A stretch of DNA of 64,000 bases from Secundilactobacillus odoratitofui DSM 19909 = JCM 15043 (GTDB lineage Bacteria; Bacillota; Bacilli; Lactobacillales; Lactobacillaceae): contig NZ_AZEE01000027.1 in NCBI RefSeq assembly GCF_001434895.1, forward strand, positions 510,661-574,660. The letters are read 5' to 3'. Position numbers and translations under genes: made by a program. Positions 6,222-51,377 of this stretch are shown here, piece after piece. Numbering within the stretch: the first letter of the stretch is position 1; each line of letters opens with the position of its first letter. The notes below the pieces were generated by a model. It worked only from the letters and a program-made list of their open reading frames with translations, did no database searches and had not been told where the DNA came from.

Positions 6222-6401
6222 TCAGCCGTAGTGCCAGTGGTGGTGATAAGTTGTTGTTGGCGCTTTAGCGTCTACAACAACTGGACGGTTTTGAGACTTG
6301 ACCTTTAGGCTCAAAACCGAGGCGGAAGACACATGAGTGGCTGAAGCTGGTCCCACTTCTACTGATCACCAAAACCACCAGTGGCCGAAGGCGGCATCAC
6401 A
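6222..6401 (+). repeat. Structured intergenic repeat, copy R1 (decayed)
   Basis: One of seven related elements. Flanks are AGCCGTAGTGCCA on the left and TGGCCGAAGGCGGCATCA on the right. Inside are P2 GTTGTTG..GGCGCT-TT-AGCGTC..CAACAAC, the linker TGGACGG, P3 GGTTTTGAG/CTCAAAACC, GAGGCGGAAGAC, P4 GGCTGAAGCT and GGTCCCAC. The outer stem is only partly preserved (GGTGAT with ATCACC), so this copy looks eroded. It lies between the two lplA genes. Confidence 0.8.
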
Positions 6402-6418
6402 CATGCTGATTAAGAAAA

Positions 6419-7429
6419 TTATCCAAGCAGTTGAACAAACTGATCAATGCTGATACCAGCAAAGTAATCCGTAATATCAACGTCTGCCAATGCTTCACGT
6501 AACGAAGGCTGATCATAGCGGACACCCTCAAGCTGAGTGGCTAAGTCTCGAGCGTCCTTTTCGCCGAAGAAGTCACCGAAGAACGTCACTTGCTTAATTT
6601 TACCTTTTTCGACTAACACTCGAGCATCAATCGTCCCTGAAGCAAAATGTTCTCGCTTCTTAACCGTAAATTCAGGAGATGAGCCATAGACCCAATCCCA
6701 GTTATTGTAGTAATCATCATATAACTTTTGAATGGCTTGCTTATCATCAGCCGTTAATTGATAGGCTTTGTCAGCAACGGCTGCCAAATCGTCAACACCG
6801 TAGACCTTACGCAAGATCGTATCACGAAATTCGGCGATAGTAAGATTCTGATACTCCGGCTTCAAAAACGGCTTAAGATTAGTCACGCGCGAACGTACAG
6901 ACTTAATGCCCTTTGAAGCCATTTTATCCTTTGGCACGTTTAACGCATGGGCAATCACACTCTGATCAACATCGTACATCAGCGTCCCGTGTGAAAACAT
7001 TTTACCGTCCTTCACGTACATCGCGTTACCAGAAAACTTCTTACCATTTACCAAAATATCATTTCGACCGGATACCTCGATATCAGTTGCGCCCATTTCT
7101 TTCAAAGCGTCCACAATCGGTTTCGTAAAGGCCTTAAAATCGCCAAATCGTTCATCATCACGATCAACTACGAAACTAAATGAAACGTTGCCAAGGTCGT
7201 CGTACACCGCCCCACCGCCAGAAAGGCGTCGCGTCACTTGAATATTGTGTTCGGCCACATAATCTTGATTGATTTCTTCTAGCGTATTTTGGTTCCGACC
7301 AACAATGATGCAAGGTTTTTGATAGTAAAATAACAAAATCGGTTCATCGAAATCCTTATTATTCATCAGGTATTGTTCTGTGGCCAAGTTATAGCCAATA
7401 TCTTCTGATGCCATATTGTAATAGTACAT
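6419..7429 (-). CDS. lplA: Lipoate-protein ligase A, copy 2
   Basis: 336-residue paralogue of the neighbouring ligase; most positions match by eye, including IIVGRNQNTLEEIN, RRLSGGGAVYDDLGN, NGKKFSGNAMY and the C-terminal TVKKREHFASGTIDAR. Same strand as copy 1, but separated by a repeat and without a visible terminator between, so read-through into copy 1 is possible. Ribosome site AAAGGGTGG. A perfect 16-bp palindrome lies just upstream (7445-7460). Two ligases may differ in substrate (lipoate, octanoate or lipoamide) or acceptor. This is not visible in the residues I can compare. Confidence 0.9.
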   Translation of the reverse strand: MYYYNMASEDIGYNLATEQYLMNNKDFDEPILLFYYQKPCIIVGRNQNTLEEINQDYVAEHNIQVTRRLSGGGAVYDDLGNVSFSFVVDRDDERFGDFKAFTKPIVDALKEMGATDIEVSGRNDILVNGKKFSGNAMYVKDGKMFSHGTLMYDVDQSVIAHALNVPKDKMASKGIKSVRSRVTNLKPFLKPEYQNLTIAEFRDTILRKVYGVDDLAAVADKAYQLTADDKQAIQKLYDDYYNNWDWVYGSSPEFTVKKREHFASGTIDARVLVEKGKIKQVTFFGDFFGEKDARDLATQLEGVRYDQPSLREALADVDITDYFAGISIDQFVQLLG

Positions 7430-7444
7430 AAGCGTGCCACCCTT

Positions 7445-7460
7445 TTAAGTAATTACTTAA
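7445..7460. promoter_or_regulatory. Perfect palindrome upstream of lplA copy 2
   Basis: TTAAGTAATTACTTAA, 16 bp and perfect, ending about 16 bases before the ATG and touching the ribosome-binding region. It could be an operator or an mRNA stem occluding the ribosome site. No equivalent precedes copy 1. Confidence 0.4.
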
Positions 7461-7484
7461 AGTTTACCGCTTTTTCGACAAAAT

Positions 7485-7523
7485 GAAACCGCTACAATTC
7501 ACAAGCTGTGATTGTAGCGGTCT
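7485..7523. other. Stem-loop between lplA copy 2 and usp
   Basis: ACCGCTACAATTCACA and TGTGATTGTAGCGGT form a near-perfect 15-bp stem with a short loop. There is no T-run typical of a terminator in either direction, and no gene is known to end here. The remaining 100 bases up to the usp promoter show nothing further. Confidence 0.5.
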
Positions 7524-7631
7524 CTTAATAGTGGCCGTGGTCACTATTCCAATTTACAGCTTCATTATGAAGACTTTTCTGAAAAATGGCAACGATCCTG
7601 CCTCATTTTTCCGATTAAAATCTCCAAATTA

Positions 7632-7640
7632 TGGTAAAAT
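7632..7640 (+). promoter_or_regulatory. Extended -10 promoter of usp
   Basis: TGGTAAAAT (TGn plus TAAAAT), with no good -35. It lies about 105 bases before the usp start, leaving a sizeable leader. Confidence 0.45.
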
Positions 7641-7744
7641 GAGAAGTGAAGTACAAGTGGTTCTCTAATGTTGGGCAAAACCATGGCGTGCTTACAGAAA
7701 AAGCTTCATATTTGAATCTATTATTTTGTGAGGGAGTGGCGTAT

Positions 7745-8212
7745 ATGGACCAACAATATCAAAACATCTTAGCACCAGTTGATGGCTCAAAAGCAACTGA
7801 TCCGGTGTTAGATAAAGCAATTGAAGTCGCTAAGTTAAACGATACTCATTTAGATATCTTGAACGTTTTGGAAGTCAACCAATTTAGTGATACTTATGGT
7901 GGTGCCGTTAGTGGCGACGTTATCTATAAGTTATCAGAAGACGTTCAAAACCGATTGACGGAATTAAAGCAAAAGGCGCTTGATGCCGGTGTGTCATCCG
8001 TTGACATCCACGTGCGTTTTGGTAACCCCAAGCCCGTTATCGCCCGCGAATTCCCAGCTGACCACGATACCCAACTGATCGTGATTGGTTCAACTGGCCT
8101 TACCGCTGTTGAACGGTTAATGATTGGTTCCGTTACCAACTATGTCAGCCGTTCTGCAATTTGCGACGTTCTGATCGTTAAGCCAGCCGAATTGGCCAAG
8201 TTAGATAAGTAA
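7745..8212 (+). CDS. Universal stress protein (UspA family)
   Basis: 155-residue cytoplasmic Usp-domain protein. It begins YQNILAPVDGSKATDPVL, with the strand and nucleotide-binding Asp typical of the family. Near the end it has the ATP-binding signature G-x2-G-x9-G-S (GSTGLTAVERLMIGS), then VTNYVSRSAICDVLIVK, so it belongs to the ATP-binding class. Start: ATG at 7745 after GAGGGAG; the frame is open 33 codons further up but without a ribosome site. Single-gene unit with its own extended -10 promoter and a strong terminator. The exact role is not inferable. Confidence 0.9.
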   Translation: MDQQYQNILAPVDGSKATDPVLDKAIEVAKLNDTHLDILNVLEVNQFSDTYGGAVSGDVIYKLSEDVQNRLTELKQKALDAGVSSVDIHVRFGNPKPVIAREFPADHDTQLIVIGSTGLTAVERLMIGSVTNYVSRSAICDVLIVKPAELAKLDK

Positions 8213-8241
8213 CGGCGGATCTTACCCCCGTTAACTTCTAA

Positions 8242-8291
8242 AAATCGTCCCAAGACTTTAAGCATTTAGAAGTCTTGGGACGATTATTTTA
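8242..8291 (+). terminator. Terminator of usp
   Basis: AATCGTCCCAAGACTT, 11-base loop, AAGTCTTGGGACGATT, then ATTTTATC: 16-bp perfect stem. Confidence 0.85.
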
Positions 8292-8333
8292 TCTGTTCAT
8301 CACCCGACAATTCTTTCAAGAGGAGGTCTCATC

Positions 8334-9242
8334 ATGTCTGATAGCTGGCAATTTACCGCTACTCTCCCTGAATATTTTGAAGCAAAGCCACTCCGGCAAT
8401 TTTTAATTCAAGATTGGCTGTTGCCTAAACACCTCGTTTTCAGTCTGAAACGCGGTCAACGGATACTGGTTAATCAGCGTTACCTCCCCGTTAATTTTAG
8501 CGTTAGTGCGGGTGACAACATTCAGCTTACTTTTTTGCCTGATGACTTTGACCGTCCATACGCACTGGTTGATCCAGATAGTGCGGCGACCGTTAGCGTA
8601 CTCTATGAATCGCAAAGTTTGCTGGTGGTGAATAAAACCCAAGGTAGCAAGACCCACCCGAATCAACCGGGGGAACTTGGTACCACGCTCAATCACGTCG
8701 CGGCTTATTTAGCCCCCAAACACCAGCAACCTTACGTAATCAATCGACTTGATCAAGAAACCAGTGGCGCCTTGTTAATTGCTAAAAATCCCGCTGTGGT
8801 TCCAGTTTTGGTACGCCTCGTGAAAGAAAAATTAATCCAGCGAACCTACCTGACCTGGGTGCACGGTCAATTTCGCAGTAAGCATGGCACCATCGCCCTG
8901 CCAATCGGACGTGATATGACCGACCAACGCAAACGGGCATTAGATGGCGACCACGCCCAAATGGCCATTACTCACTACCGGGTCATTAAACAACGATCTG
9001 ATGCAACCCTCGTTGCAATTCAACTGCAAACCGGTCGCACTCACCAAATTCGGGTACACCTAGCCGGACTCGGTCATCCGATCGTGGGCGATCCGCTGTA
9101 CGCACATGATGTAAGGCAACAGCGATTGCTTCTTCACAGCTGGCAACTGCGCCTCCCACTGCCGTTCTCATTTGACCAAGTGACGATTACGGCGGATATT
9201 CCGAGCACGTTTAAAACATTTGAAAGCACAACTAAACCTTAG
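8334..9242 (+). CDS. RluA-family pseudouridine synthase
   Basis: 302-residue RNA-modifying enzyme converting uridine to pseudouridine in rRNA or tRNA. An N-terminal S4-like region (about 15-70, with LKRGQRILVN) precedes the catalytic domain. The catalytic Asp is D140 in INRLDQETSGALL. The second signature is LQTGRTHQIRVHLAGLGHPI followed by GDPLY. Start ATG with AGAGGAGG, 8 bases away. It stands alone, with a shared bidirectional terminator after it. The family (RluA/RluD type) is certain; the target uridine is not. Confidence 0.9.
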   Translation: MSDSWQFTATLPEYFEAKPLRQFLIQDWLLPKHLVFSLKRGQRILVNQRYLPVNFSVSAGDNIQLTFLPDDFDRPYALVDPDSAATVSVLYESQSLLVVNKTQGSKTHPNQPGELGTTLNHVAAYLAPKHQQPYVINRLDQETSGALLIAKNPAVVPVLVRLVKEKLIQRTYLTWVHGQFRSKHGTIALPIGRDMTDQRKRALDGDHAQMAITHYRVIKQRSDATLVAIQLQTGRTHQIRVHLAGLGHPIVGDPLYAHDVRQQRLLLHSWQLRLPLPFSFDQVTITADIPSTFKTFESTTKP

Positions 9243-9282
9243 TCGTTACCTTCCGGAAGTCATCATTGTTCAAAACAATATC

Positions 9283-9331
9283 AAAGGGTTACGTTCACCG
9301 TGTAAATTTCACGATGTCGTAACCCTTTTTT
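9283..9331. terminator. Bidirectional terminator between the pseudouridine synthase and ABC genes
   Basis: AAAGGGTTACG pairs with CGTAACCCTTT, with T-rich sequence on both strands, between convergent genes. Confidence 0.8.
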
Positions 9332-9339
9332 AAACGCCA

Positions 9340-10560
9340 TTACCGATACGACAATCCCCGTCTGAAACGGTGCCAGAGGTTGCCTTCATCTGCTTGCAAA
9401 ATCAAGCCCTTATAAATACCACTAATATACCAAACTAATAATAATATCGCGACAATTAATAATCCCAATGAAAAGCCAATTTCAACTGGCGAAGCAACAC
9501 CGTTGATGATGCGTAGCGGCATGAAGTATGATGAAAAGAATGGTACATATGACAAGATTTTCACCAATAAAGCGTCGGCATTATTTTGAAACGGGAACGT
9601 TGCAAAAAAGGCAGCCATACTGAGATAAACTGCTGGATAAGACGCTTTTGAGGCATCCTCAGCTTTAGCAACTAATGCACCGCTGAACGCTGCTAAAATC
9701 GTGTAAATGATGACACCCAGGAACAAGAATAACAGGTTGACGCTCACCAAATTACCAATCACCTGATTGACGAGTGAGCCATAATCCCGGAAGAAACTGT
9801 CTGCCATGCTCATATGGTGTGCAGCAATTAAGCTCGCCCAACCACCTAACAAATACACGACCAGTTGAGTCGCAATCACCATTAAAACGCCGAGAATTTT
9901 ACCACAAAAGTATTTGCCGGCCGTGGTGCTTGAGAAAATAATCTCCATGACCTTCGTGCCCTTTTCCGACGCAATTTCCTGTGCAGTGATTGAAGAGTAG
10001 GTGGTCAAAATCATGTAAACCATGAAGACGAGAATCCAAAACGACGCTAATTTAGCAATTTTAGCCAGTCCGTCCTTTTTTTGGACCACCTGTTTAAAAA
10101 TTGGCTGTTGTTGCAATTGACTAAGTTGCCGGTGTGATAGCTTTGCTCGCACGACGTTGGCCTGCGTCTGTAGTTTATTTAAGAAACTGGTTAACCGTGT
10201 TTTATCAAAACTCGCCATCGCTTCGGTACCATGGTAGGTTGCCTGATACCGTTGACCTGCCGAAAGCACCAGATAACCCTTAATAGCCTCTTTTTTGAGT
10301 GCTTTTTTAGCTGCCGTTTCCGTTTTCACACGTTGGTCGACCTGGTCGTGGCCGACGACCTTAATATAGGCTTGGCGAACCGCTGATTGATTTGATACAA
10401 CGGCAATCTGGTCACTATCTGCAGCAGAATTAGCAGACACAAAACCCACTCCAAATGAAACTGCCAGCATGATAAACGGTGACAAAACAAGAATCACAAA
10501 ACTCCATGACTTCACTTGGCGAAGATAGGTACTTAACGTCACGACCCATAGCTTTTTCAT
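9340..10560 (-). CDS. ABC-2 type exporter permease (NatB/YhaP-like)
   Basis: 406-residue membrane protein. One transmembrane helix near the N-terminus (about 15-42) is followed by a large extracytoplasmic domain (about 45-170, Lys/Gln rich) and then five or six helices (about 172-385) in the ABC-2 layout. The motif SEKGTKVMEIIFSSTTAGKYFCGKI before the third helix is typical of NatB/YhaP permeases. It overlaps the upstream ATPase gene by 4 bases (ATGA), so the two are translationally coupled. By family it exports Na+, a peptide or a drug; the substrate is unknown. Confidence 0.85.
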   Translation of the reverse strand: MKKLWVVTLSTYLRQVKSWSFVILVLSPFIMLAVSFGVGFVSANSAADSDQIAVVSNQSAVRQAYIKVVGHDQVDQRVKTETAAKKALKKEAIKGYLVLSAGQRYQATYHGTEAMASFDKTRLTSFLNKLQTQANVVRAKLSHRQLSQLQQQPIFKQVVQKKDGLAKIAKLASFWILVFMVYMILTTYSSITAQEIASEKGTKVMEIIFSSTTAGKYFCGKILGVLMVIATQLVVYLLGGWASLIAAHHMSMADSFFRDYGSLVNQVIGNLVSVNLLFLFLGVIIYTILAAFSGALVAKAEDASKASYPAVYLSMAAFFATFPFQNNADALLVKILSYVPFFSSYFMPLRIINGVASPVEIGFSLGLLIVAILLLVWYISGIYKGLILQADEGNLWHRFRRGLSYR

Positions 10561-11450
10561 TGATCATTCCCCGCTTTCATTCTGAAAATTTCGTCCAGAG
10601 TTGGCGGCTGTTGACTGAATTCCTCAATGTACTCGCCATGTGAAAGTCGTTGGAAAATTTCCCGTCCCGCCGTTGGATCATCAACTCGAAGCAAGTAGCG
10701 TTGATTAGACAGCGATGTCACTTTGATGACGTGGGGTAGTTGCTGCAACTCAACAGCTGACCAAGGTGTTGTGACAAAAATCTCACTTTTGCCAAACTGG
10801 TCTCGAATCGCTCGAATTTCGCCGTGTAACACCATATCACCCTTGCGTAGCATCACCAGTTGATCACATAATGCTTCCACGTTACCCATATCGTGGCTCG
10901 AAAAAATAATCGCAGCGCCCTCCCGTTTAGCGTTCGAAATTGCCTGTTCCAGTAAATCCACGTTCACTGGGTCCAGACCGCTAAACGGTTCATCTAAAAT
11001 GATCAGCGAAGGATGATGAATCAGTGTGCAGATTAGCTGAACCTTTTGCTGATTACCTTTAGACAGTGATTTGATTTTGTCGTTTTTTTTGCCTTTCACT
11101 TCAAAACGTGCCATCCAATCATCAATCTCTGAGCGAATTTTCCGTGCCGATTGCCCCTTCAACTGTGCTAAGTAGAGAATTTGTTGTTCAATTGTCATTT
11201 TCGGCATGAGGCTGCGTTCTTCCGGCAGATAACCAATTTGGTTAAAGACCGCTTCCGTAATCGGTTGTCCATCCCAATTGATCGTCCCATCATAGTGAAT
11301 AAAACTTAAAATGCTATGAAATGTGGTTGATTTACCAGCGCCATTTTGACCGATCAACCCCATAATTTCACCTTTTTCAACGTTGAAATTAACATCGTTG
11401 AGTGCCTGTAATTCACCAAAGTGCTTTGATAAGTGTTCGATTGCTAGCAT
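10557..11450 (-). CDS. ABC exporter ATP-binding subunit (NatA/YhaQ-like)
   Basis: 297-residue ATPase. Walker A GQNGAGKST (about 34-42), Q-loop near IGYLPEERSL, signature LSKGNQQKVQL (the KGNQQK variant common in NatA/YhaQ/EcsA types), Walker B LIILDEPFSGLDP, and H-loop SSHDM. A C-terminal 90-residue extension (about 205-297) is typical of the NatA/bacitracin-type subfamily. The start has GGGGGGGA upstream. It is the first gene of the two-gene exporter operon. The upstream intergenic region carries palindromic repeats; I could not place a clear promoter. Confidence 0.9.
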   Translation of the reverse strand: MLAIEHLSKHFGELQALNDVNFNVEKGEIMGLIGQNGAGKSTTFHSILSFIHYDGTINWDGQPITEAVFNQIGYLPEERSLMPKMTIEQQILYLAQLKGQSARKIRSEIDDWMARFEVKGKKNDKIKSLSKGNQQKVQLICTLIHHPSLIILDEPFSGLDPVNVDLLEQAISNAKREGAAIIFSSHDMGNVEALCDQLVMLRKGDMVLHGEIRAIRDQFGKSEIFVTTPWSAVELQQLPHVIKVTSLSNQRYLLRVDDPTAGREIFQRLSHGEYIEEFSQQPPTLDEIFRMKAGNDQ

Positions 11451-11624
11451 GATGTCCCCCCCTATACGAATCTCGTTGGTTTCATCATACCAAATGTTGG
11501 TAATCAGGGCGATGGTTATTGGGGAGAATTGGGATTGTGCAGGGATGGACGAAATTTTTTTGGGGGTAAGACGCGACTGTTACGAATTTAAATTTTGGAT
11601 TTAAATCGTTTTTTTCATTACATT

Positions 11625-11716
11625 ACATAGCTGAAACGCGCAAAATAAAACTGAGACCTATGTATAAGGCCCTCTCGTCATAAATCCAAGTTCGGGATTT
11701 ATGATGAGAGGACTTT
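11625..11716. repeat. Palindromic repeat H1 (tandem copy a)
   Basis: Begins TACATAGCTGAAACGCGC, then AAACTGAGACCTATGT, then a long hairpin with arms CTCTCGTCATAAATCC and GGGATTTATGATGAGAG around AAGTTC, ending in GGACTTTTTTC. It is a direct repeat of H2 with matching architecture and compensating arm differences. The T-run makes it a possible plus-strand terminator, although no plus-strand gene precedes it. Confidence 0.75.
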
Positions 11717-11723
11717 TTTCTTT

Positions 11724-11845
11724 TACGTAGCCGAAACGCGCGGAACAAAACTGAGACCTATGTGTAAAGCCCTCCTGTCAAAAATCCAGGTTCGGGATTT
11801 TTAACAGGAGGGCCTTACACGCCGGTCTCAAAACGTTTCGTTCCG
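11724..11845. repeat. Palindromic repeat H2 (tandem copy b)
   Basis: Begins TACGTAGCCGAAACGCGC, then AAACTGAGACC, then arms CTCCTGTCAAAAATCC and GGGATTTTTAACAGGAG around AGGTTC. It closes with CCTTACACG and GGTCTC.AAACG.TTTCG, so nearly the whole element folds back on itself. It ends about 8 bases from the stop codon of the downstream exporter gene (minus strand), forming that gene's 3' end. Confidence 0.75.
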
Positions 11846-11852
11846 CACTCTT

Positions 11853-13622
11853 TTATTTTGCACTCTGCAACTGATTCTCCACGTACTCCCGGTATAGTGG
11901 ATGGGTAGCTACCAACTCTTGGTGCGTGCCATGGCCGCTTACCTTACCGTGTTCAATGAAGTAAATCTGGTTGGCGTCCACGATGGTGCTTAAGCGGTGG
12001 GCGATTACTAGCGTTGTTCGATTATGCATGAGTTTTTCCAGTGCCTTTTGGACCATCATTTCCGATTCCGAGTCCAAGCTGGCCGTGGCCTCATCCAGCA
12101 TCAAAATTTTCGGATCACGTAGGAAAGCTCGCGCAATCGCAATTCGCTGTCGTTGGCCACCCGATAATTTGACCCCACGTTCACCGACTTGGGTATCGAG
12201 GCCCTTCGGCATTTCCGCCACAAAATCCTTTGCGTACGCCATTTCAAGCACGTGCCATAATTGGTCATCTGTGTACTCATCTTTGAGGCCATAGGTTAAA
12301 TTAAACCGAATCGACCCTGCCATAATGGTTGCATCCTGGCTCACCAATCCAATCTGTTGTCGCCACTGACCTAAATTAACGTCACTGATAACCTGATTAC
12401 CAATCTTGACCTCTCCATTCGTCGGATCGTAAAACCTTTCCAGTAACTTGAAGATGGTTGATTTACCACCACCGGAAGGCCCCGCAAAGGCCACCACACT
12501 GTTAGGGGTTGCCGTAAACGAAACATTCTGTAAAATTGGATCACTGTCTGAGTAGGCAAAATCAACGTGATTCATCGTCAGCGTCTTGCCCGTTGCATCG
12601 ACCGCTTCACCAGCAAGTTGATCCTCTTCAGGCGCCTGTAACAACTCTTGAATGCGGGCCGTTGAACCGCTGGCCTTAGCCATGTCAGAGAAGAATCGAC
12701 CCAATGTTGAAAATGGCCCAATCAACTGAACAAGGTACATTAAAAATGAAATCAACGTGCCAAAAGTCATCGAACCGGCAGCAACCCGGCTGGCCCCATA
12801 AATCAGCATACCAATTACAAGCGCCATCATAACCATCTGCATGATTGGTGATGCGATTGAATCGTAAATTGCTTCCTTAAGACCAATTCGATAAAGCTTG
12901 TTAATCTTGCCATGACCCGTTTCACGTTCAACGGCTTCAGCAGTGGAAGACTTTACGAGTTGAATGTCTCCCAGCATTTCACTAGCTTCCGCGTTAAAAT
13001 CGGCTAGCGCATCTTGACGAGCATGCGCAATTTTACGTGACTGTGTTGCTACTGGCATGATGACAACCACCACTAACGGTACCGCCACGAACATGATAAT
13101 CGTCATTTTCCAGTCCATAAACAGCATCAAAATCAGCGCGCCAACTAACTGCAATATCGAAGTGACCAAGTTAGGCACCGAGTTGGCCAATAGATCTTTT
13201 ACTTGTGACGTATCGTTTACTAACCGTGACGCCACCTCACCAGATCTCGTCTCAGTAAAGTAACCGACTGGTAAAACCAGTACTTTGTCCCAAAGGAATC
13301 GACGTAGTTTGTTCACAACGTCTTCGCCGAAGAACCCTAAAACACTGCCTGATACGGCGCTAACCAACGCACTTAAAATAAAAGCGGCAATCAGCGCAAT
13401 AATGAGACCGCTGTTCATCGCGTGACCAAGCTGATTCACCAAATTTTTGGCAAATTGCGGCACGATCAGTTGTCCCACGGTTGCAATCAGGCCTAATAAT
13501 AAGCCCAGACCTAACTGCCAAAAGTGTGGTTTAATCTGAATCACCAACTTCGTAAACTGCTTAAAGTTGAATTTGGTTGGCGCTTGTTTGGCCACTTGGG
13601 CTCGTCCCTGCATCTCTCTCAT
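11853..13622 (-). CDS. Multidrug ABC half-exporter (LmrA/BmrA type)
   Basis: 589 residues, the usual length for LmrA/BmrA homodimeric exporters. Six-helix membrane domain about residues 30-320 (intracellular loop motif GEVASRLVNDTSQVKDL), then a nucleotide-binding domain about 345-589. Walker A GPSGGGKST, signature VKLSGGQRQRIAIARAFL, Walker B ILMLDEATASLD and switch IAHRLS. Every catalytic residue I can check is present. It is preceded by a MarR gene 20 bases upstream on the same strand, so expression is probably controlled by that repressor through the TTAGTTAG operators. Likely drug or lipid export powered by ATP; the substrate cannot be inferred. Confidence 0.92.
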   Translation of the reverse strand: MREMQGRAQVAKQAPTKFNFKQFTKLVIQIKPHFWQLGLGLLLGLIATVGQLIVPQFAKNLVNQLGHAMNSGLIIALIAAFILSALVSAVSGSVLGFFGEDVVNKLRRFLWDKVLVLPVGYFTETRSGEVASRLVNDTSQVKDLLANSVPNLVTSILQLVGALILMLFMDWKMTIIMFVAVPLVVVVIMPVATQSRKIAHARQDALADFNAEASEMLGDIQLVKSSTAEAVERETGHGKINKLYRIGLKEAIYDSIASPIMQMVMMALVIGMLIYGASRVAAGSMTFGTLISFLMYLVQLIGPFSTLGRFFSDMAKASGSTARIQELLQAPEEDQLAGEAVDATGKTLTMNHVDFAYSDSDPILQNVSFTATPNSVVAFAGPSGGGKSTIFKLLERFYDPTNGEVKIGNQVISDVNLGQWRQQIGLVSQDATIMAGSIRFNLTYGLKDEYTDDQLWHVLEMAYAKDFVAEMPKGLDTQVGERGVKLSGGQRQRIAIARAFLRDPKILMLDEATASLDSESEMMVQKALEKLMHNRTTLVIAHRLSTIVDANQIYFIEHGKVSGHGTHQELVATHPLYREYVENQLQSAK

Positions 13623-13642
13623 CTATTCATGCCTCAATTCCA

Positions 13643-14200: not shown

Positions 14201-14226
14201 ATGATTAACCTCTTTTTGATCGATTT

Positions 14227-14309: not shown

Positions 14310-14324
14310 ATAATTGAGATTAAA

Positions 14325-14370: not shown

Positions 14371-14394
14371 TCGATAACGATTTATTTGTAAAAA

Positions 14395-18301: not shown

Positions 18302-18497
18302 ATTGGCCCACTACCACTCCGACTAGCAGCCTTGGACCGTTACTGTGGGACCGGTTCCAGCCACGAAAATGCCGTGTCTTTCACCTCGCCTTTAAGCCTC
18401 AAGCCCCGAGTCTTAAAGACGTCCAGACTTTGTAACCGCCAAGGGCGCTAACAAAGTCTTGTCACCGCAACGGCCCAAGCCTGCTAGTCTCCGTTAT
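18302..18497 (-). repeat. Structured intergenic repeat, copy R2
   Basis: Minus-strand copy. Outer stem arms 18321-18341 and 18469-18489 pair over 21 positions with only two changes. Inside, in minus-strand order: GACTTTGTTAGCGCC/GGCGGTTACAAAGTC, TGGACG, TCTTTAAG/CTTAAAGG, GAGGTGAAAGAC, GGCTGGAACC and GGTCCCACAGT. Right flank GTCGGAGTGGTAGTGG. Confidence 0.85.
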
Positions 18498-18651
18498 CGT
18501 TTAATCCGTAGTACCATTAATTCATTCAAAAAATTAATAACGAACACAGTACCTATTGTAAAATAGGCGCATCCTGACCCAAGATTCCATCTATCCTGTC
18601 AATATAACTTCAACATGCATCCGCTCCTCACAATAATCGGTCATTCTCCAT
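18498..18651. other. AT-rich spacer between divergent repeats R2 and R3
   Basis: About 155 bases without an ORF, terminator or recognisable promoter. It shows no similarity to the spacer between R4 and R5. Confidence 0.5.
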
Positions 18652-18846
18652 GCCAGCCGTAGCATCACCGGTGATTTTCAGTTGGTGGCAGTGACTAGTG
18701 GTTGTTGACGCTTCAGCGTTTACAGCCACTGGACGGTTATGAGACTCGTTCTTTGAGGCTCATTACCGAAGCGTAAGACGAGGTACTCAGCTGAAGCTGG
18801 TCCCACAGCTACGAACTGAAAATCACCGGTGGCCGAGGCGACATCA
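18652..18846 (+). repeat. Structured intergenic repeat, copy R3
   Basis: Best-preserved short form. Outer stem P1 18666-18683 with 18814-18831: 18 bp, perfect. P2 18697-18730 (AGTGGTTGT..GACGCT-TC-AGCG..ACAGCCACT), linker TGGACGG, P3 18735-18743 with 18759-18767, then GAAGCGTAAGACGAGGTACT, P4 CAGC-TGAA-GCTG (18788-18799) and GGTCCCACAGC. Flanks AGCCGTAG and GGTGGCCGAGGCGACATCA. Confidence 0.88.
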
Positions 18847-23285: not shown

Positions 23286-23502
23286 GTCGCCTTCGGCCAC
23301 TGGTCGTCAGGGTTGGTTGCTGCGGGACCGGGTTCAGCCGAAGAACGCGTCTTCACCCTCGGTTTTGAACCACGAAGTTCACGTGTTTCAAAGCCGTCCA
23401 ATGTTGTAAGGCCGAAGTCAGGGACAAAGGTCGCGTCCCCAACTTCAACCTAACAACATTTTTCGCTGCTACCAACCCTGACGACCAGTGGCACTACGGC
23501 TA
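23286..23502 (-). repeat. Structured intergenic repeat, copy R4 (long P2 form)
   Basis: Minus-strand copy. Outer stem 23296-23317 with 23471-23492: 22 bp, perfect. P2 is the extended form, AATGTTGTTAGGTTGAAGT pairing with ACTTCGGCCTTACAACATT. It is followed by TGGACGG, P3 CTTTGAA/TTCAAA, GAGGGTGAAGACG, P4 CGGCTGAACCCG and GGTCCCGCAGC. Flanks AGCCGTAGTGCCA and TGGCCGAAGGCGACA. Confidence 0.88.
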
Positions 23503-23648
23503 ATATACAGTATTCGAGTTAGCTTGAGCTAAAGTTATCACGTCCCTAAAGGGGGACAAACTTACGAAACAATTTCGAAATACTCCTCCGAAAATTGTTC
23601 AATTTACAGACAAACGCTCTGAATTTTCGGCTAGTATTTAACCAGAAC
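23503..23648. other. Spacer between divergent repeats R4 and R5
   Basis: About 146 bases. AGCTTGAGCT and GAAACAATTTCGAAA are small palindromes. No ORF or terminator is seen. Confidence 0.45.
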
Positions 23649-23833
23649 GGAGGACTATCCGGTTTGCCGACAGCAGTGACAAGTGCCAGTTGACGCTTCA
23701 GCGTTTACTGGCACTGGACGTTGCTGAGACTTGCGTTTTTTCAAAGCTCAGCAACGAGGCGTAAGACGAGGTACTCGGCTGAAGCCGGTCCCACAGCAGT
23801 TGGCAAGCCGGATAGTCCGGAGTGGTAATGGCC
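23649..23833 (+). repeat. Structured intergenic repeat, copy R5
   Basis: Outer stem 23652-23668 with 23802-23818: 17 pairs, one of them G-T. P2 AGTGCCAG..TGACGCT-TC-AGCG..CTGGCACT, TGGACG, P3 TTGCTGAG/CTCAGCAA, GAGGCGTAAGACGAGGTACT, P4 GGC-TGAA-GCC, GGTCCCACAGC. Right flank GGAGTGGTAATGGCC, like R2. Confidence 0.88.
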
Positions 23834-44857: not shown

Positions 44858-44861
44858 GTGG

Positions 44862-44960: not shown

Positions 44961-45059
44961 ATTTTTGCAAATATAGACTTATTTCCCAGTTTCTTCTCTA
45001 ATGTTTTTTCGTTTTCCAGTAAATATATAATCAAACGATTGGCCCAAACCCAATGACAA

Positions 45060-45761
45060 TCATCCAGCCCAATTGGCTAATGAGCCAGTTAGCAAAACGG
45101 CATCTTCATCAATTTTTTTATTCCAAGTAGTCGAATACGGATCGTTGTACCGAGCTTTACCAACAACGCTGAGTTGTCGAATCTGGGTTGTCGTTCGCCA
45201 GAAATGACGTGTTTTGCGCACGACCACTTTAACGTTGTAGGCTTTATGCCTGACGAACAGCGTGCCAGTATACTGTGCTTCACGGTCAGTCTGGTACGTA
45301 ACAGCGACTAAATTAACCAATTGGCCGTCTGCTAATAAGCGATAAGTCGGTGTCGAACCATCTGACCCGTTCCGTAGTTGTTGGGGCTTCGATGACTTCA
45401 AAGCGTGGTTGATTGTTGTCTCAACGGCTTGCATTGGTTGCGTTTTATTCACTCGATCGTTGTGAACCCCAATAATTAAGAATAGTCCCCACGCGAGTAA
45501 CCCGACAATCAGCAATCGGCGACTAGGTTTAATCAGCGTTGTCGTCATCGTTCGTAATCGATGCAAGGCATTTACCACGAACCATACTAGGATTGTGGCG
45601 GGATAACTCATTAATCCAATCCACAACACTTGTGCTGCACTAATATTTAGGAGTGACCATTGCGTCATTGCCATCCTAGGATGCATGGCGTAAATCATAC
45701 CGATTAAAAGCAGCCCCAGATATGGCCATGTCAACCACTGCTGAACTCTTTGTTTCACCAT
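45060..45761 (-). CDS. Hypothetical membrane protein with extracytoplasmic domain
   Basis: 233 residues. Three membrane helices (about 10-28, 42-64, 83-100), then about 130 residues probably outside the membrane, with strands such as YRLLADGQLVNLVAVTYQTDREAQYTGTLFVRHKAYNVKVVVRK. Its start shares one base with the stop of the preceding gene (TAATG), so the two are translationally coupled. No known domain recognised. Probably part of an envelope module with the next two genes. Confidence 0.72.
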   Translation of the reverse strand: MVKQRVQQWLTWPYLGLLLIGMIYAMHPRMAMTQWSLLNISAAQVLWIGLMSYPATILVWFVVNALHRLRTMTTTLIKPSRRLLIVGLLAWGLFLIIGVHNDRVNKTQPMQAVETTINHALKSSKPQQLRNGSDGSTPTYRLLADGQLVNLVAVTYQTDREAQYTGTLFVRHKAYNVKVVVRKTRHFWRTTTQIRQLSVVGKARYNDPYSTTWNKKIDEDAVLLTGSLANWAG

Positions 45762-46783
45762 TATGCAATCCAGCTTAGGACAGGTTCTTGAATCTCAAAC
45801 GGACTACCGGTACCAACCTTAACCTTCACATCCCCGTCAAAACTTTCACCCTCATAATGTTCCAAGCTTGCTAATGTGATTGAGAGCCGAATCACCTGTA
45901 GTTTGGCCAAGTAACGCACTTTAGTCACATTACCGTAGTGATACTTTGCTGTTAGTGTTTTTTCGGCCGTTAGCTTCCGATTAAGGGGTAATTGCGAATA
46001 GGTTAGTTTTCCGTCGTTGAGATGGAGCACCGTCGCAGTGCCATTAGTGTTTTGAATCATCAGTGTCTTTAACGTTCCCTGTTCACTGAGACTGGCAATT
46101 TTAAAATCACCATAGTCGTTGTTCGTCCAATAATACTGATCAAGCTGATTGCCCTTTAGCAATAGTGTCATGGGTTTGACGTAGCTCCCCTTTTGCAGGG
46201 CTGCCTGGTAGATCCAACCCAGCGATTTTCCAGCAGCCGTCTGTACTTTAGCATAGTGTCCGTGTCGAGTAGTCATAGTCTCAGTGACGTATAGCGTTTG
46301 AGTAACATGGTCTCGGGCAAAACGAACCTCATTATTTGCAGCCCTTGTATCAATTGGCGATTGCCAGAAATTATGCTTTGTGTTCTGCAATGTGTAAGCA
46401 GTCTTTTTAACTCGTCGTTGACTCAATACCGTTTTGACCTTCTTAACGGACGACTGACGAACATAGATTAATGGTATGGGATTTTTCGGTACAGGAAGTG
46501 GTACCACGTTACCAATATTCTTGAGCTTCGATTGATTAACGATCCGCTTCAGGCCCAGATAAGTCTGATTGCGATACCGAACCCGTTTCACTTTCACATA
46601 CAGTGCCTTCGTGCTTTTTAAGCGACCCGTATAGGTCATCGTTTTCTTAAAGTGATACGCCTTTGTGCGCGCCGTTTTAACAACGTAAGCTGTGTTCGAC
46701 TGACTCGCCTCGGCGGCTCTTTGCCCCATCATGCCACCTGCTAGCAGTCCTAATGCTAACAGCATTACCCCTGATATTTTCAT
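45761..46783 (-). CDS. Secreted protein with SH3-like segment, unknown function
   Basis: 340 residues. Signal peptide MKISGVMLLALGLLAGGMMG, then basic, Tyr-rich sequence; a GW/SH3-like stretch near 200-225 (HYAKVQTAAGKSLGWIYQAAL) suggests wall binding. I use the ATG at 46783, which has GGGGGA; the longer frame adds 25 residues without a ribosome site or signal logic. Translationally coupled to the following membrane protein gene. The composition recalls the exported protein at 28-843, but I see no clear homology. Confidence 0.72.
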   Translation of the reverse strand: MKISGVMLLALGLLAGGMMGQRAAEASQSNTAYVVKTARTKAYHFKKTMTYTGRLKSTKALYVKVKRVRYRNQTYLGLKRIVNQSKLKNIGNVVPLPVPKNPIPLIYVRQSSVKKVKTVLSQRRVKKTAYTLQNTKHNFWQSPIDTRAANNEVRFARDHVTQTLYVTETMTTRHGHYAKVQTAAGKSLGWIYQAALQKGSYVKPMTLLLKGNQLDQYYWTNNDYGDFKIASLSEQGTLKTLMIQNTNGTATVLHLNDGKLTYSQLPLNRKLTAEKTLTAKYHYGNVTKVRYLAKLQVIRLSITLASLEHYEGESFDGDVKVKVGTGSPFEIQEPVLSWIA

Positions 46784-46960
46784 TTTATTCCCCCAAATTA
46801 GTACTTTAGTGACATTATTATCTACTGTCATCCTGCGCTTATTAACCTTGATAGTCAAAGTTTTATATAGGATTAATTTTAAGTAATGGATATGGTTAGA
46901 AATGCATTTTACCGGAAAGTGACGCTAAGGTCCAGCAAAAGCTCACCCCAACGGCTTGCA

Positions 46961-47617
46961 CTACATTACCCACCATTGATCTTCATAGGGGAGATAGATA
47001 AACCCAATTTGGCGCACATTGACTTGCAACGTGGCATTTTCGGAAGTATTCCCCATGGACGCCATTCCAGGTTCAATAATATCCGGTTTACTAAAGCCAT
47101 AACCATCCGCTACAGAACCAACGAGCGTTGTACGCACCGCGTTAGTTGGAAAGTCATAGCCTGCAACGTATAAACGCACTGCTAATTGTGGTGTGAGTAA
47201 ACACACCAGCGTGCCAGCAGAAGCAACCAGAACAGACCATTTGAATAGTCGCCGATTGACAGAACCATATAAACTCATGGTAAATATCACGGCAGTCATA
47301 AAAATCAACGCGGGTAAAACGATTCCTACATAGGCAGCAATACTCAAAACAAATGTATCAGAACACACCGTTAGTAAGATGACGAGGCCTGCAAAAAGTA
47401 ACCAACTGCTTTGACCATCCTTTTGCCAACGATACACACTAAAAGCCAAGTAACCTAGTGGTAAGCCGACATACAGCACCCAGCCAATTACCACCAAGTT
47501 ATCTGAACCATTACCAATAACTGAAACGTTAAACAGATATCGTCGAGCGTACCATACCATTATCCAGATAATTGTGGTGATGCAAAATGTTAAATATTTG
47601 GGCCAACGTCGCTTCAT
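46961..47617 (-). CDS. Hypothetical membrane protein
   Basis: 218 residues with about five helices (about 8-26, 42-62, 72-90, 93-115, 125-150) and a C-terminal segment of about 65 residues likely outside (DIIEPGMASMGNTSENATLQVNV). Ribosome site GAGGT. It lies upstream of the secreted/membrane pair on the same strand with a gap of about 180 bases and no terminator, so all three may form one unit. Family not recognised. Confidence 0.7.
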   Translation of the reverse strand: MKRRWPKYLTFCITTIIWIMVWYARRYLFNVSVIGNGSDNLVVIGWVLYVGLPLGYLAFSVYRWQKDGQSSWLLFAGLVILLTVCSDTFVLSIAAYVGIVLPALIFMTAVIFTMSLYGSVNRRLFKWSVLVASAGTLVCLLTPQLAVRLYVAGYDFPTNAVRTTLVGSVADGYGFSKPDIIEPGMASMGNTSENATLQVNVRQIGFIYLPYEDQWWVM

Positions 47618-47806
47618 CGTTTTACCTCATTCCAAGATAATATTCTTAATTTTAAGCATATCTCAACTACGAATCACTTTTTCAGAATTGTATCTAATTC
47701 TTAAAAGAACTTTTCTAAAATATTCTTAAATCGTGGTGCTAAAATCATCTGACTTCCGAAATCCATGCAAAAAATTCGCTTAGACTCCGGCCGCATAAAA
47801 CGACAG

Positions 47807-47844
47807 AAAAGGGAAGTGCCCAAAAACCGGCATTTCCCTTTTTA
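47807..47844. terminator. Hairpin terminator downstream of the iron alcohol dehydrogenase
   Basis: AAAAGGGAAGTGCC and GGCATTTCCCTTTTT pair around an 8-base loop; T-rich on both sides. It follows the large hairpin H4. Confidence 0.65.
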
Positions 47845-47870
47845 TTAATCTTGTTACATTGACTAAAGCC

Positions 47871-47986
47871 GAGCCATCAGTCAGATGCCGGCCATGTAAG
47901 ACAAATAAGCCGGGTGTGCACAAAGTTCATGCACACCCGGCTTATTTGTCTTACATTCTGGCATCTAAACGACTGATGTCTCGGTC
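47871..47986. repeat. Very long palindrome H4 at the 3' end of the iron alcohol dehydrogenase gene
   Basis: Core stem 47894-47920 with 47930-47956: 27 bp, perfect, 9-base loop. It extends outward through GATGCC/GGCATC, CATCAGTC/GACTGATG and CCGAG/CTCGG with small bulges, to about 45 paired positions. It ends two bases before the stop codon. Built like H2. Confidence 0.85.
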
Positions 47987-47987
47987 T

Positions 47988-49157
47988 CTATTCTGCATCA
48001 TAAGCTTCCTGGAACAAAGCAACGATTTCTTCCTTAGTCCCCTTACGAGGGTTAGAGAAGGCGTTACCGTCCTTCAAAGCATTTTCAGCCATCAATTCGA
48101 AGTCTTCTGGCTTTGCACCGATTGACTTGATTGAACGTGGGATGTTGACATCGTCACACATCTGACGCATTGCCTTGATAGCTAAGTCAGCGGCATCACG
48201 TGTTGAAAGGCCATCCGTGTTTTCACCCATAATTTCAGCTAATTCAGCGAAACGTTCTGGACAAGCTTGGATGTTGTACTTTTCAACGATTGGTAACAAC
48301 ATTGCGCAGCAAACACCGTGAGGGGCATCATATTGACCGCCCAATTGGTGCGCCATGGCGTGAACGTAGCCAAGGTCGGCGTTGTTGAAGGCCATTCCAC
48401 CAAGCATTTCAGCTTCAACCATCTTGGTACGAGCTTCAACGTTGTGGCCGTTAGCAACGACTTCACGTAAGCTATCTTCAACCAAACGAATTGCTTGGAT
48501 ACATTGACCGTCAGTTAATTCGTTACGGTTAGTTGAAACGTATGGTTCGATGGCTTGAACGAATGTATCCATCCCAGTAGCGGCAGTTAAGCCCTTAGGA
48601 ACGTCTAATTCAAGCATTGGATCGTTAAATGAAACAAGTGGAACGTTACGCCATGACACAACGACGAACTTCAGCTTTGTTTCTTCGTTAGTGATCACAC
48701 AGTGACGGGTTAATTCTGAAGCAGTCCCGGCAGTGGTGTTAACCGCCATCAGTGGTGGCAATGGGTTTTCCAAGGTTTCGATACCAGCCAAAGCGGTAAT
48801 ATCGTCACCGTTAGTCAACAGGATACCAGTACCCTTACCAGCATCATGAGAAGAACCGCCACCAATGGTGATGATACTGTCACAGCCGTTGTCTAAATAA
48901 ACTTGCTTAGCTTCTTTAATGTTACGAATTTTAGGGTTTGGTTCAACACCATCGTAAATGGCGTAGCTAACACCTGCTTCGTCCAATGAAGCTAACGTTT
49001 GTGCAACCGGACCATTGTCCATGCCACGCAAGAATTTATCAGTTACAATCAAAGGCTTACTCATGTTCAACATCTTGGCACGGTCACCAATCTTCTTGAT
49101 GACACCTTTACCGAAAAAGTTAACGCTAGGCATTAAGAAATCAAAGTTTTCCTTCAT
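47988..49157 (-). CDS. Iron-containing alcohol dehydrogenase (1,3-propanediol dehydrogenase-like), one metal ligand replaced
   Basis: 389-residue group III alcohol dehydrogenase, NAD(H)-dependent by the GGGSSHDAGKG fold (99-109). Overall closest in style to DhaT/PduQ (FFGKGVIKKIG, YVHAMAHQLGGQYDAPHGVCCAMLLP). Expected metal ligands D197, H266 and H280 are present, but the third, normally His in GMDxxxHAIE, is Q201 (GMDTFVQAIEPYVS). The AdhE in this window keeps that His. Ribosome site TAGGAG. Its promoter carries a Rex-like site matching adhE. A single gene ending in a giant hairpin. Substrate could be an aldehyde such as 3-hydroxypropanal or lactaldehyde. Confidence 0.9.
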   Translation of the reverse strand: MKENFDFLMPSVNFFGKGVIKKIGDRAKMLNMSKPLIVTDKFLRGMDNGPVAQTLASLDEAGVSYAIYDGVEPNPKIRNIKEAKQVYLDNGCDSIITIGGGSSHDAGKGTGILLTNGDDITALAGIETLENPLPPLMAVNTTAGTASELTRHCVITNEETKLKFVVVSWRNVPLVSFNDPMLELDVPKGLTAATGMDTFVQAIEPYVSTNRNELTDGQCIQAIRLVEDSLREVVANGHNVEARTKMVEAEMLGGMAFNNADLGYVHAMAHQLGGQYDAPHGVCCAMLLPIVEKYNIQACPERFAELAEIMGENTDGLSTRDAADLAIKAMRQMCDDVNIPRSIKSIGAKPEDFELMAENALKDGNAFSNPRKGTKEEIVALFQEAYDAE

Positions 49158-49185
49158 GATTTACACTCCTAAAATATAGTTTGTA

Positions 49186-49201
49186 TGTTATCATTTTCAC
49201 A
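49186..49201 (-). promoter_or_regulatory. Rex-like operator before the iron alcohol dehydrogenase
   Basis: Minus strand TGTGAAAATGATAACA, four bases after the -10 box; near-palindromic (ATGTxA...TxACAT). Confidence 0.6.
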
Positions 49202-49205
49202 TCGA

Positions 49206-49234
49206 ATGATAGCACTATATTCAAAAAATGTAAA
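49206..49234 (-). promoter_or_regulatory. Promoter of the iron alcohol dehydrogenase
   Basis: -35 TTTACA (49234-49229), 17 bases, -10 TATCAT (49211-49206). Same -35 box as adhE. Confidence 0.6.
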
Positions 49235-49460
49235 CGGTTAAAGTGTAATTTGTTCAAATTTAAAAAGCTTAATAAAACCTTATATATCGGCATATTCTTC
49301 ATTTTATTATACAATTTTCACATACAAGTTTAACAAAATTTGCACATTATTCATGCCCTCAACTAATTTTTAATTTCACAAAGTTTATCACCTAAACTAT
49401 GCCGTTAAAGTCTGAAAAATCAATGATACTGTTAACTATTTTGAGTTTCAAACAAATTAA

Positions 49461-49492
49461 AAACCTCGTCCGATAAATCTGGCGAGGTTAAC
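49461..49492 (-). terminator. Terminator of the amino acid permease gene
   Basis: AACCTCGCC and GGACGAGGTT, 10-base loop, then TTTAATTTG on the minus strand. The 270 bases between here and the iron ADH promoter are AT-rich and hold nothing I can identify. Confidence 0.75.
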
Positions 49493-49548
49493 AAATAATT
49501 TGTAATATTTATTAATTAGTTACTGTACGATATCATCCAAAAACGCCT

Positions 49549-50940
49549 TTAATTTGATCGCAAATCACCGCGGTGTCGAACGAGGTAGAATATTGTTGCC
49601 AATATTAGGACCGCTGCCCCAACAATCACCGAAACCCGGGTATCCGGGTTGATGAACATAAAGATGACGATCACTAATAGCATGATGATGGCAAAGTAAT
49701 TCGAGTACGGATAAAGCGGTAATTTAAATGGATGGCCCGTCATCACCATCTCATTATTTTTACGGAAACGTAATTCGGCTAACAAAATGACAAACCAGGG
49801 AATCATTCCGGGCAGAACCGATGAACTGAACACCACCACAAACAAGTTAGCGGTTGACTGGCTATACATCGACGCCACCATATCAAGGATAAAGCCAAGG
49901 AGAATACCACCAGAAATACCTAAAATCGCGGCATCTGGCACGATTCGTTTGGACAAGCGCCCCATAATTTTCGGCGCATCACCTTCGTGGGCCAGCTTAT
50001 ACAGCATCCGACTAGACGAATAAATACCAGAATTAGCACCTGATAACGCCGCCGTTAGAACCACAAAGTTAATCACCGTTGCAGCAGCCGTGATACCAAC
50101 TTTAGCGAAGGTTGAAACGAACGGTGACCCAATCGAGCCTAACTGGTTCCATGGATAGATCGTAACAATCACAAAAATCGCGCCAACGTAGAAAATCAAA
50201 ATTCTAAACAGGACCGATTTAACTGATTTGATAATCGCCTTTTGCGGATTCGCCACTTCCCCTGCTGAGATACCAAGCAGTTCAATGCCTTGATATGACC
50301 CAACAATAATCGACATCGAGAAGAAAAAGCCACGGGCACCACCAGTAAAGAAACCGCCATGCGCCCATAGGTTACTAAACCCGACTGGATGACCGCCGTT
50401 ACCAAGGCCGAAAAAAATCACCATAAACCCAAGTAAAATCATCATGATAATCGTGATGACTTTGATCATTGCAAACCAGAACTCAAGTGAACCATACGCT
50501 TTAGCACTGGCAAGGTTGGCTGAAACCAAGAATAAAATGATAATTAAACCACTCGTAAACGTATTAATGTTAGGCCACCAATACTTTAAATACTCCGTAG
50601 CGGCCACCACCTCTGACATGCCAACCACAATGTACTCGAAAACGTTGGCCCATTTTGCCAAGTAACCTGCGAGTGGGTGAACGTATTCGGTCGCATAATC
50701 GGCAAACGAACCAGTTCCAGGGTTGATGTAAATCATCTCACCCAACGCTCGCATCACAATGTATAAAATCAAACCGACAAACATATAGGCAAGTAACACT
50801 GATGGCCCAGTCCACTTAATGGTTGCTGTAGACCCCATGAACAGGCCGACACCGATTGCCCCACCAAGGGAAATCATTTCCATCTGACCAGCTGTCATCG
50901 AACGCTGTAAGGCTGGCGCTTGTTGCACTTTTCGTTTCAT
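49549..50940 (-). CDS. APC-family amino acid permease
   Basis: 463 residues, twelve helices, of the AAT subfamily (amino acid:H+ symport). N-terminal RSMTAGQMEMISLGGAIGVGLF, then GPSVLLAYMFVGLILYIVMRALGEM and GSFADYATEYVHPLAGYLAKW, which are typical family positions. Specificity (Ala/Ser/Gly, aromatic or GABA types) is not decidable. I start at the ATG 50940 with GGAGAGAG upstream; the longer frame lacks a ribosome site. Single gene; its upstream region contains repeats R6 and R7. Confidence 0.9.
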   Translation of the reverse strand: MKRKVQQAPALQRSMTAGQMEMISLGGAIGVGLFMGSTATIKWTGPSVLLAYMFVGLILYIVMRALGEMIYINPGTGSFADYATEYVHPLAGYLAKWANVFEYIVVGMSEVVAATEYLKYWWPNINTFTSGLIIILFLVSANLASAKAYGSLEFWFAMIKVITIIMMILLGFMVIFFGLGNGGHPVGFSNLWAHGGFFTGGARGFFFSMSIIVGSYQGIELLGISAGEVANPQKAIIKSVKSVLFRILIFYVGAIFVIVTIYPWNQLGSIGSPFVSTFAKVGITAAATVINFVVLTAALSGANSGIYSSSRMLYKLAHEGDAPKIMGRLSKRIVPDAAILGISGGILLGFILDMVASMYSQSTANLFVVVFSSSVLPGMIPWFVILLAELRFRKNNEMVMTGHPFKLPLYPYSNYFAIIMLLVIVIFMFINPDTRVSVIVGAAVLILATIFYLVRHRGDLRSN

Positions 50941-51034
50941 TTTCTCTCTCCAAGTTAGTTCAAGTATACGGTTTAGCATAGCACAATTACGTATTTACCA
51001 GTAACCATTTCATTCAAGTAGAACAGTAAGTTTT

Positions 51035-51154
51035 GTCTGCCACTGTCACTCCGACAAGCAACTTTGACCAGTTGCTGTGGGACCAGCTTCAGCCGAGTAT
51101 AGTCCGCGTAATTCTGAAATGGCTGGACACACTCGGTTGTCAGAATGCATGATA
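51035..51154 (-). repeat. Structured intergenic repeat, truncated copy R7
   Basis: Minus-strand copy lacking the left outer arm and P2. It keeps a degenerate P3 (ATTCTGA/TCAGAAT), GACTATACT, P4 CGGCTGAAGCTG, GGTCCCACAGC, the right outer arm, and the flank GTCGGAGTGACAGTGG seen in R2. It abuts R6. Confidence 0.75.
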
Positions 51155-51377
51155 TGAGCCGGAGCGTCGCCAGCGCTTTTGGGTACTGGTGGCAGTGATA
51201 AATGTTGTTAGGTTGAAGTGAGACACAGAACCATCGTGTCTTGCTTCAAGCTTACAACATTGGACGGGGCAGAGACTCGGTTTCTGAGGCTCTGACTCGA
51301 GGCGGAAAACGCGAAGCGGTTGTAGCCGGTCCCACAGCCACGAGTACCCAAAAGCGCTGGCGACCGGAGGTGGCCGT
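51155..51377 (+). repeat. Structured intergenic repeat, copy R6 (long P2 form)
   Basis: Outer stem 51166-51187 with 51343-51364: 22 bp, perfect. P2 starts AATGTTGTTAGGTTGAAGT and ends CTTCAAGCTTACAACATT, nearly the same arms as R4. Then TGGACGG, P3 GGCAGAG/CTCTGAC, GAGGCGGAAAACG, P4 GCGGTTGTAGCCG and GGTCCCACAGC. Confidence 0.88.

Follow-up and report, generated by a model that had tools for sequence, protein, structure and literature searches.

A family of dispersed structured repeats with covarying stems in Secundilactobacillus odoratitofui and related Lactobacillales

Repetitive extragenic palindromic sequences (REPs) of ~35 to 40 nt go together with the REP-associated tyrosine transposase (RAYT), and the BOX element of Streptococcus pneumoniae follows a modular box plan. 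In PMC2267715, a length of 40 is listed for PU-BIME (BIME, bacterial interspersed mosaic element), the enterobacterial repetitive intergenic consensus (ERIC) is reported as a single long stem-loop of ~127 bp, and Efa-1 of Enterococcus faecalis is described as an intergenic element of 163 nt with 65 copies and two adjacent hairpins. Here, a stretch of 64,000 nt from Secundilactobacillus odoratitofui DSM 19909 = JCM 15043 (contig NZ_AZEE01000027.1, positions 510,661 to 574,660; the “window”) was analyzed for a family of structured modules of ~170 to 200 nt, which is represented in the window by six full copies and one remnant, none of them inside predicted open reading frames (ORFs). The family has no entry in Rfam and is a dispersed structured repeat not described before in the papers found; the openly accessible literature searched, which included parts of PMC2267715 and PMC2864571 and had subscription papers outside its range, contained no description of it. 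When the window was compared to Rfam 15, no family reached the gathering score on the copies, and only Ref68 did so elsewhere, so that the Rfam match that would have refuted the original prediction did not occur. No family reached the cut-off at six loci of relatives either, and permissive scans returned one chance microRNA match far below the cut-off and nothing else.

Two covariance models were used, model R1, built from four copies of the window, and model R2, built from 34 elements, 5 of them from the genus of the window (1 of these from the window itself), the other 29 coming from records without an assignment to this genus. RNAalifold on the plain MAFFT alignment of the 34 elements yielded 52 pairs, 46 of which had compensatory double-sided changes. 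With nine hand-set pairs added, 91.7% of the cells paired and 51 of the 61 pairs changed on both sides, giving a covariation score of 0.496, compared to at most 0.103 when the partners were slid. In 148 distinct rows aligned by model R1, an alignment that is biased towards structure, 43 of 46 pairs were compensatory and the score was 0.666 versus at most 0.100. This supports the original prediction that the module is a selected structure, and the signal remained strong as copies were added. The sequence drifted freely while the fold persisted, which indicates that the fold itself matters.

The predicted plan of an outer stem P1 enclosing the hairpins P2, P3, and P4 was borne out in the window copies, and conservation rose steeply at both module ends, AGCCGNAGG and CCGNAGGCG. 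As read from the alignment of the 34 elements, the base of P1 pairs CCGNAGG with CCGNAGG, two G.A pairs flanking a Watson-Crick pair that varies; an A.G mismatch (AGAC..GGCT) is common to P3 and P4, and P2 has a frequent U.U mismatch (GTTA..TTAC). The inner helices of the module are GTG/CAC and GGGAC/GTCCC. The original description of the linkers needs correction: GAGGCGTAAGACGAGG was exact in one copy and GGTCCCACAGC in four, and the linkers are in part paired, forming the GTG/CAC and GGAC/GTCC helices. That the P1 sequences are unrelated was correct within the window, but subfamilies with common P1 parts exist genome-wide.

The folded strand could be read from P1 in a wobble-blind alignment. 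After unanchored modules (9 of 124 in the genome of the window, 11 of 135 elsewhere) and low scorers (25 of 115 and 22 of 124, respectively) had been left out, P1 contained 2019 Watson-Crick, 97 G-T, and 19 A-C pairs in 90 modules of this genome and 2139, 101, and 32 in 102 modules elsewhere; other isolated mismatches were mostly purine-purine. A G-T pair on one strand is an A-C pair on the other, so that the excess of G-T indicates folding of one strand. Of the two possibilities named earlier, an RNA or a DNA hairpin, this favors RNA, and the folded strand is probably RNA rather than single-stranded DNA (ssDNA), which keeps some probability.

Modules often occur in divergent pairs. All 37 pairs with a distance below 1.5 kb in the genome of the window were divergent, and their ends were by our count type I/type II in 28 cases, II/II in 4, and unclear in 5. 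Among 136 matches from loci mainly of other genera, a count that left out the low-copy congeners, 37 of the 38 pairs less than 1 kb apart were divergent, the lone other pair being 781 bp apart and spanning two units. In the window, six of the seven copies form three such pairs, an arrangement absent from the original prediction. The low-copy congeners had mainly single modules at the 22 loci covered, with one divergent pair (L044). A short repeat of at most ~26 bp was seen in both orientations inside several spacers (C4:284042, C4:343871, C4:528985, C7:8755, C11:10109, and C11:65660), the unit C4:528985 being the window pair 18314-18840.

Modules and spacer were duplicated together in three related units of the genome of the window. 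The homology ended on the right in all three just past GGAGGCGRCA, where module II has its 3' end. In the congener S. similis, the modules reside within units of ~890 bp that are repeated at many sites and have inverted ends of ~57 bp (L310-L329); of 20 stretches, some of which were stopped by contig ends, 17 showed the right end and 13 the left. These units terminate in a small TTACGC/GCGTAA hairpin, and the left half of one of them (L313) matched the model on the opposite strand with 26 bits. The ends of the S. similis units are inverted; in the genome of the window, the module ends are alike within a type, but P1 is not. Filled and empty sites were also observed: one locus measured 252 bp in L. 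fuyuanensis and 321 bp in L. parabrevis versus three modules in L. tongjiangensis, common to L. yonginensis, and at a second locus several species carried modules of differing subtypes, as judged by eye. On the right side of this second locus (L307, L306), one module is seemingly nested in P1 of another, again by eye, and in L122 (genome of the window, C7 near 94.8 kb) a type I module has an outer end that is partly duplicated in tandem.

The family has been amplified in a species-specific manner. Model R1 gave at least 128 matches at E ≤ 0.01 in the genome of the window, 4 of which had a better match on the opposite strand, leaving at least 124 modules at 87 sites; this is a lower bound because 150 of 459 candidates were scored. 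GGTCCCACAGC occurred 76 times without mismatch in this genome, compared to 2 times for the reversed control, and a pattern scan of genome contigs found at least 115 stretches. Under strict filters and among the best 76 candidates, model R1 matched at least 76 times in the genome of the window, at least 75 times in S. similis, 0 to 6 times in 13 other congeners, and not at all in 26 genomes outside the genus. The limitation to one genus suggested by this model (11 of 41 genomes) was overturned by model R2. The search of Lactobacillaceae proposed with the original prediction, done with model R2 on the best 10 candidates per genome, returned a match in 58 of 251 genomes and 11 of 40 genera. Two near-complete Lactobacillaceae genomes had at least 150 (150 of 150 scored) and at least 141 matches (141 of 150 scored); among those listed, 98 of 150 and 52 of 141, respectively, no strand bias along the chromosome was seen. 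The 80 listed stretches of the pattern scan included Levilactobacillus, Companilactobacillus, Furfurilactobacillus, Secundilactobacillus, Lactiplantibacillus, and unassigned Lactobacillus records. In the genome of the window, C5 85,932-680,181 (~594 kb) contains no module, with ~16 of the 76 exact motifs expected there if they were even, and dnaA on C24 is 2.3 kb from a module.

At the level of the order, model R2 matched 16 of 198 genomes; two other families accounted for 13 of these, and the scores were weak (25.6 to 41 bits). Of 20 loci from the distant families, 12 could be aligned, and their consensus contained 37 pairs, compensatory changes being present in 21; these distant relatives are ~165 to 175 nt long. 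A 57-base match in Aerococcus tenax, between convergent genes on a 592-kb “plasmid” record, points to the Aerococcaceae as one of the two families. No plasmid beyond this record was found by blastn, weak matches at E ≤ 10 being judged as chance, and the phage records searched gave no match. Two viral contigs, L282 and L281, were found by pattern, the latter without a model match; L282 (IMG/VR contig, 4,936 bp, listed as viral) carries a clear module at 221-402 (-) with 154.8 bits.

These data can be combined into a model for the origin of the copies. The modules may be miniature inverted-repeat transposable element (MITE)- or BIME-like non-autonomous mobile units of the Lactobacillales, with an RNA-like fold kept by selection during their spread, a reading that we regard as evenly balanced between right and wrong. 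A typical full unit would consist of two modules of ~170 to 200 nt, back to back around an AT-rich spacer, with the unit boundary at or near their outward 3' ends. Each module would fold as one strand, most likely RNA, into the long P1, the inner helices, and the hairpins P2 to P4 with their recurring non-standard pairs, and a trans-acting factor would recognize the fold together with the non-standard positions that are conserved, not the stem sequence. The fold would be kept because only lineages that still fold would be copied on, and a single copy in place would be weakly constrained. In a bolder version, which we consider doubtful, the family may represent a novel class of bacterial selfish RNA in at least three families of Lactobacillales, a mobile unit with two outward structured RNA ends, the stem sequence of which is nearly free while a dedicated mobilizing machine would recognize only their fold and a small number of non-standard pairs.

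Evaluation of the mobile-unit reading needs to consider a number of observations that weigh against it. The left boundary of homology coincided with that of the module in one comparison and lay ~50 bp farther outward for the other two units. No target duplication was accepted for 214 anchored modules and 50 pairs with 384 settings per test, the best z being 4.4 for a 3-base window and the control reaching up to 4.2, and none was visible by eye in the S. similis units. Fifty of the 87 sites in the genome of the window had a single detected module, and most spacers there could not be aligned between units. Tandem, non-divergent pairs were present in two low-copy congeners (loci L034 and L056); divergent pairing therefore prevails in genomes rich in the family but is not obligatory. 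The promoter signal 5' of the modules resembled that of the reverse strand and of shuffles (234 of 260 modules anchored). A mobilizing enzyme did not emerge from the genome of the window, which had no match to Y1_Tnp (PF01797) at E ≤ 1e-10, the E. coli control being positive, and none to RVT_1 or PF07282 (TnpB) at E ≤ 0.001.

A related autonomous element was not seen in the fetched loci either. In one genome of a distant family, an ISL3-family insertion sequence (IS; PF01610, E 8.6e-53; L331-L333) carried a related module past the stop codon of its transposase gene and before its right end; of the four ISL3 copies fetched, three had ~1.78 kb in common and the fourth had 834 bp in common with them. 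Another distant relative (L340) was outside any IS. As judged from these few loci, the distant module may hitchhike on ISL3, or ISL3 may be its mobilizer.

The constraint in place was assessed in 36 orthologous modules, each sequence being folded alone because RNAalifold on pairs drops broken pairs. Divergence was 0.087 in the modules versus 0.100 in their flanks (coding DNA included) and was lower in 23 of the 36. Single changes of Watson-Crick pairs led to G-T in 129 cases, to A-C in 93, and to other combinations in 107, and 73 double changes resulted in another Watson-Crick pair (both directions counted). Compensation was present but breaks were common, which indicates a weak constraint in place and a strong one over the family history. 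At one locus, five modules had diverged by 0.028 to 0.105 and two spacers by 0.138 and 0.177. L194 contains, between modules, a 273-aa ORF without a Pfam match (596-1417, minus strand) in a stretch diverged by 0.026, below its neighboring genes.

Alternatively, the modules may be RNA elements that serve the host and are kept beside genes, as stabilizers in 3' untranslated regions, processing sites, or antisense RNAs to the converging gene, which is possible but unlikely. The slightly reduced divergence of the orthologs and their compensatory changes would agree with such a function, as would the gene context, since the 84 sites with both neighbors included 33 convergent, 47 tandem, and 4 divergent gene pairs (simple ORF heuristic), and the report in PMC2267715 that Yersinia ERIC copies regulate their neighbors as RNA hairpins. 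It is opposed by the common breaks, with 200 single changes to A-C or other combinations versus 129 to G-T, by copy numbers between 0 to 6 and at least 75 among congeners, and by the promoter result. A little more doubtful than host-serving RNAs are folded ssDNA transposon ends of the kind known from BIME/REP with RAYT and from IS200/IS605, where a nuclease reads ssDNA hairpins. The inverted arrangement of paired structured repeats, bases conserved at the foot of a hairpin, the lack of a target duplication, and the small hairpin at the S. similis unit ends could be explained in this way, but paired modules fold on opposite strands, extend over 170 to 200 nt with multiway junctions, and reside in a genome that gave no Y1 transposase match at the threshold used.

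The very long P1 stems, some of them free of mismatches, with unrelated sequences, may also be kept perfect by template switching between the arms during replication instead of by selection of the fold. This process predicts equal numbers of G-T and A-C pairs, yet the counts were 97:19 and 101:32; G-T differences in P1 were seen between related copies, and the junctions and non-standard pairs are common across genera, which makes template switching highly improbable as the cause. The least probable of the explanations considered is that the modules are scaffolds of guide RNAs of a TnpB-like system. Here, the structured RNA would stop at the end of the element, and the flanking DNA would therefore be the guide; the outward 3' ends of the modules at the end of the unit and the missing target duplication are compatible with this. 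There was, however, no PF07282 match in the genome of the window, no conserved motif beside the module ends (214 anchored modules and 50 pairs), and two modules are present per unit.

The copies in the window are listed in Table 1. Seven had been predicted, and six of them are full modules matched by model R2, whereas the seventh is the 3' half of a module, the 5' part of which was replaced by the last copy; as predicted, each is located between predicted ORFs. Model R2 recovered all six full copies with E ≤ 2.8e-17, one of them being in its training set, and neither model R1 nor model R2 matched the remnant. The fold z values of the full copies were, in the order of their coordinates, -5.8, -5.9, -12.0, -9.1, -11.1, and -11.5 (60 dinucleotide shuffles, as for the remnant). 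The described strand folded better than its complement in seven of seven copies, with the remnant flipping when wider limits were used.

Table 1. Modules, spacers, and the remnant in the window
Feature	Position	Strand	Evidence
Full module, copy R1, unpaired, type II-like ends	6224..6393	+	Model R2 62.5 bits; model R1 136.8 bits (in R1 training)
Full module, left half of divergent pair, type I-like ends	18314..18496	-	Model R2 75.9 bits; end motifs
AT-rich spacer inside pair	18497..18654	.	Sequence
Full module, right half of divergent pair, type II-like ends	18655..18840	+	Model R2 74.8 bits (in R2 training)
Full module, long P2, type II ends, left half of divergent pair	23295..23493	-	Model R2 97.6 bits
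Spacer inside pair	23494..23645	.	Sequence
Full module, type I ends, right half of divergent pair	23646..23824	+	Model R2 95.3 bits
Remnant: module 3' half (GGTCCCACAGC and return arm)	~51036..51157	-	Motif and sequence; fold z -1.8
Full module, long P2, pointing away from remnant	51168..51362	+	Model R2 82.6 bits

Two adjacent paralogs of a lipoate-protein ligase (5111-7429, minus strand) are situated one on each side of the single module at 6224-6393. The Ref68 match (RF02840; Enterococcus sRNA 68, Lacto-3 RNA) is at 3856-3987 on the minus strand and scored 80.9 bits, above the cut-off.

The module family is among the more abundant structured elements that can be found in a lactic acid bacterium, and it has very strong covariation and no Rfam family. 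The fact that its pairs are almost always divergent, and that it is the fold rather than the sequence that is conserved, provides a direct handle on how short structured bacterial repeats of the ERIC and BOX kind move. Each module-rich genome is, moreover, a natural library of more than 100 folded variants, which may be used in structure probing and strain typing.

Of the described systems, BIME/REP with RAYT resembles the family in that heterologous structured repeats form inverted pairs with a spacer between them in intergenic regions, but the modules are with 170 to 200 nt much longer and Y1_Tnp was not matched in the genome of the window at E ≤ 1e-10. BOX is likewise intergenic and structured, and the modular box plan is its own feature; it was compared to the module by description. 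Its host belongs to the Lactobacillales as well, and its copies number about a hundred (PMC2267715). Similar to the modules, ERIC and YPAL are short, dispersed, non-coding intergenic repeats with many copies and a conserved fold possible as RNA (PMC2267715), but when compared by description to ERIC, the module has junctions, mostly divergent pairing, and a mostly free stem sequence. Efa-1, also compared by description, is intergenic and in size near the distant relatives, and the passage on it in PMC2267715 mentions neither divergent pairing nor P1 covariation. The family differs from the TnpB omega RNA by the lack of a PF07282 match in the genome of the window (E ≤ 0.001) and shares with structured noncoding RNAs compensatory changes that exceed the slid-partner controls (0.496 versus at most 0.103). 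Like MITEs, it is non-autonomous, dispersed, and short and duplicates as a block with defined ends, as in the three units and at the right end in S. similis, but it has no target duplication, no known transposase, and terminal repeats that do not seem to be conserved between most copies. The behavior is thus that of a MITE or BIME, but a tested defining feature of each fails, and the family was therefore filed with the dispersed structured repeats of the ERIC and BOX type, which are, like the module, dispersed and intergenic with a conserved fold.

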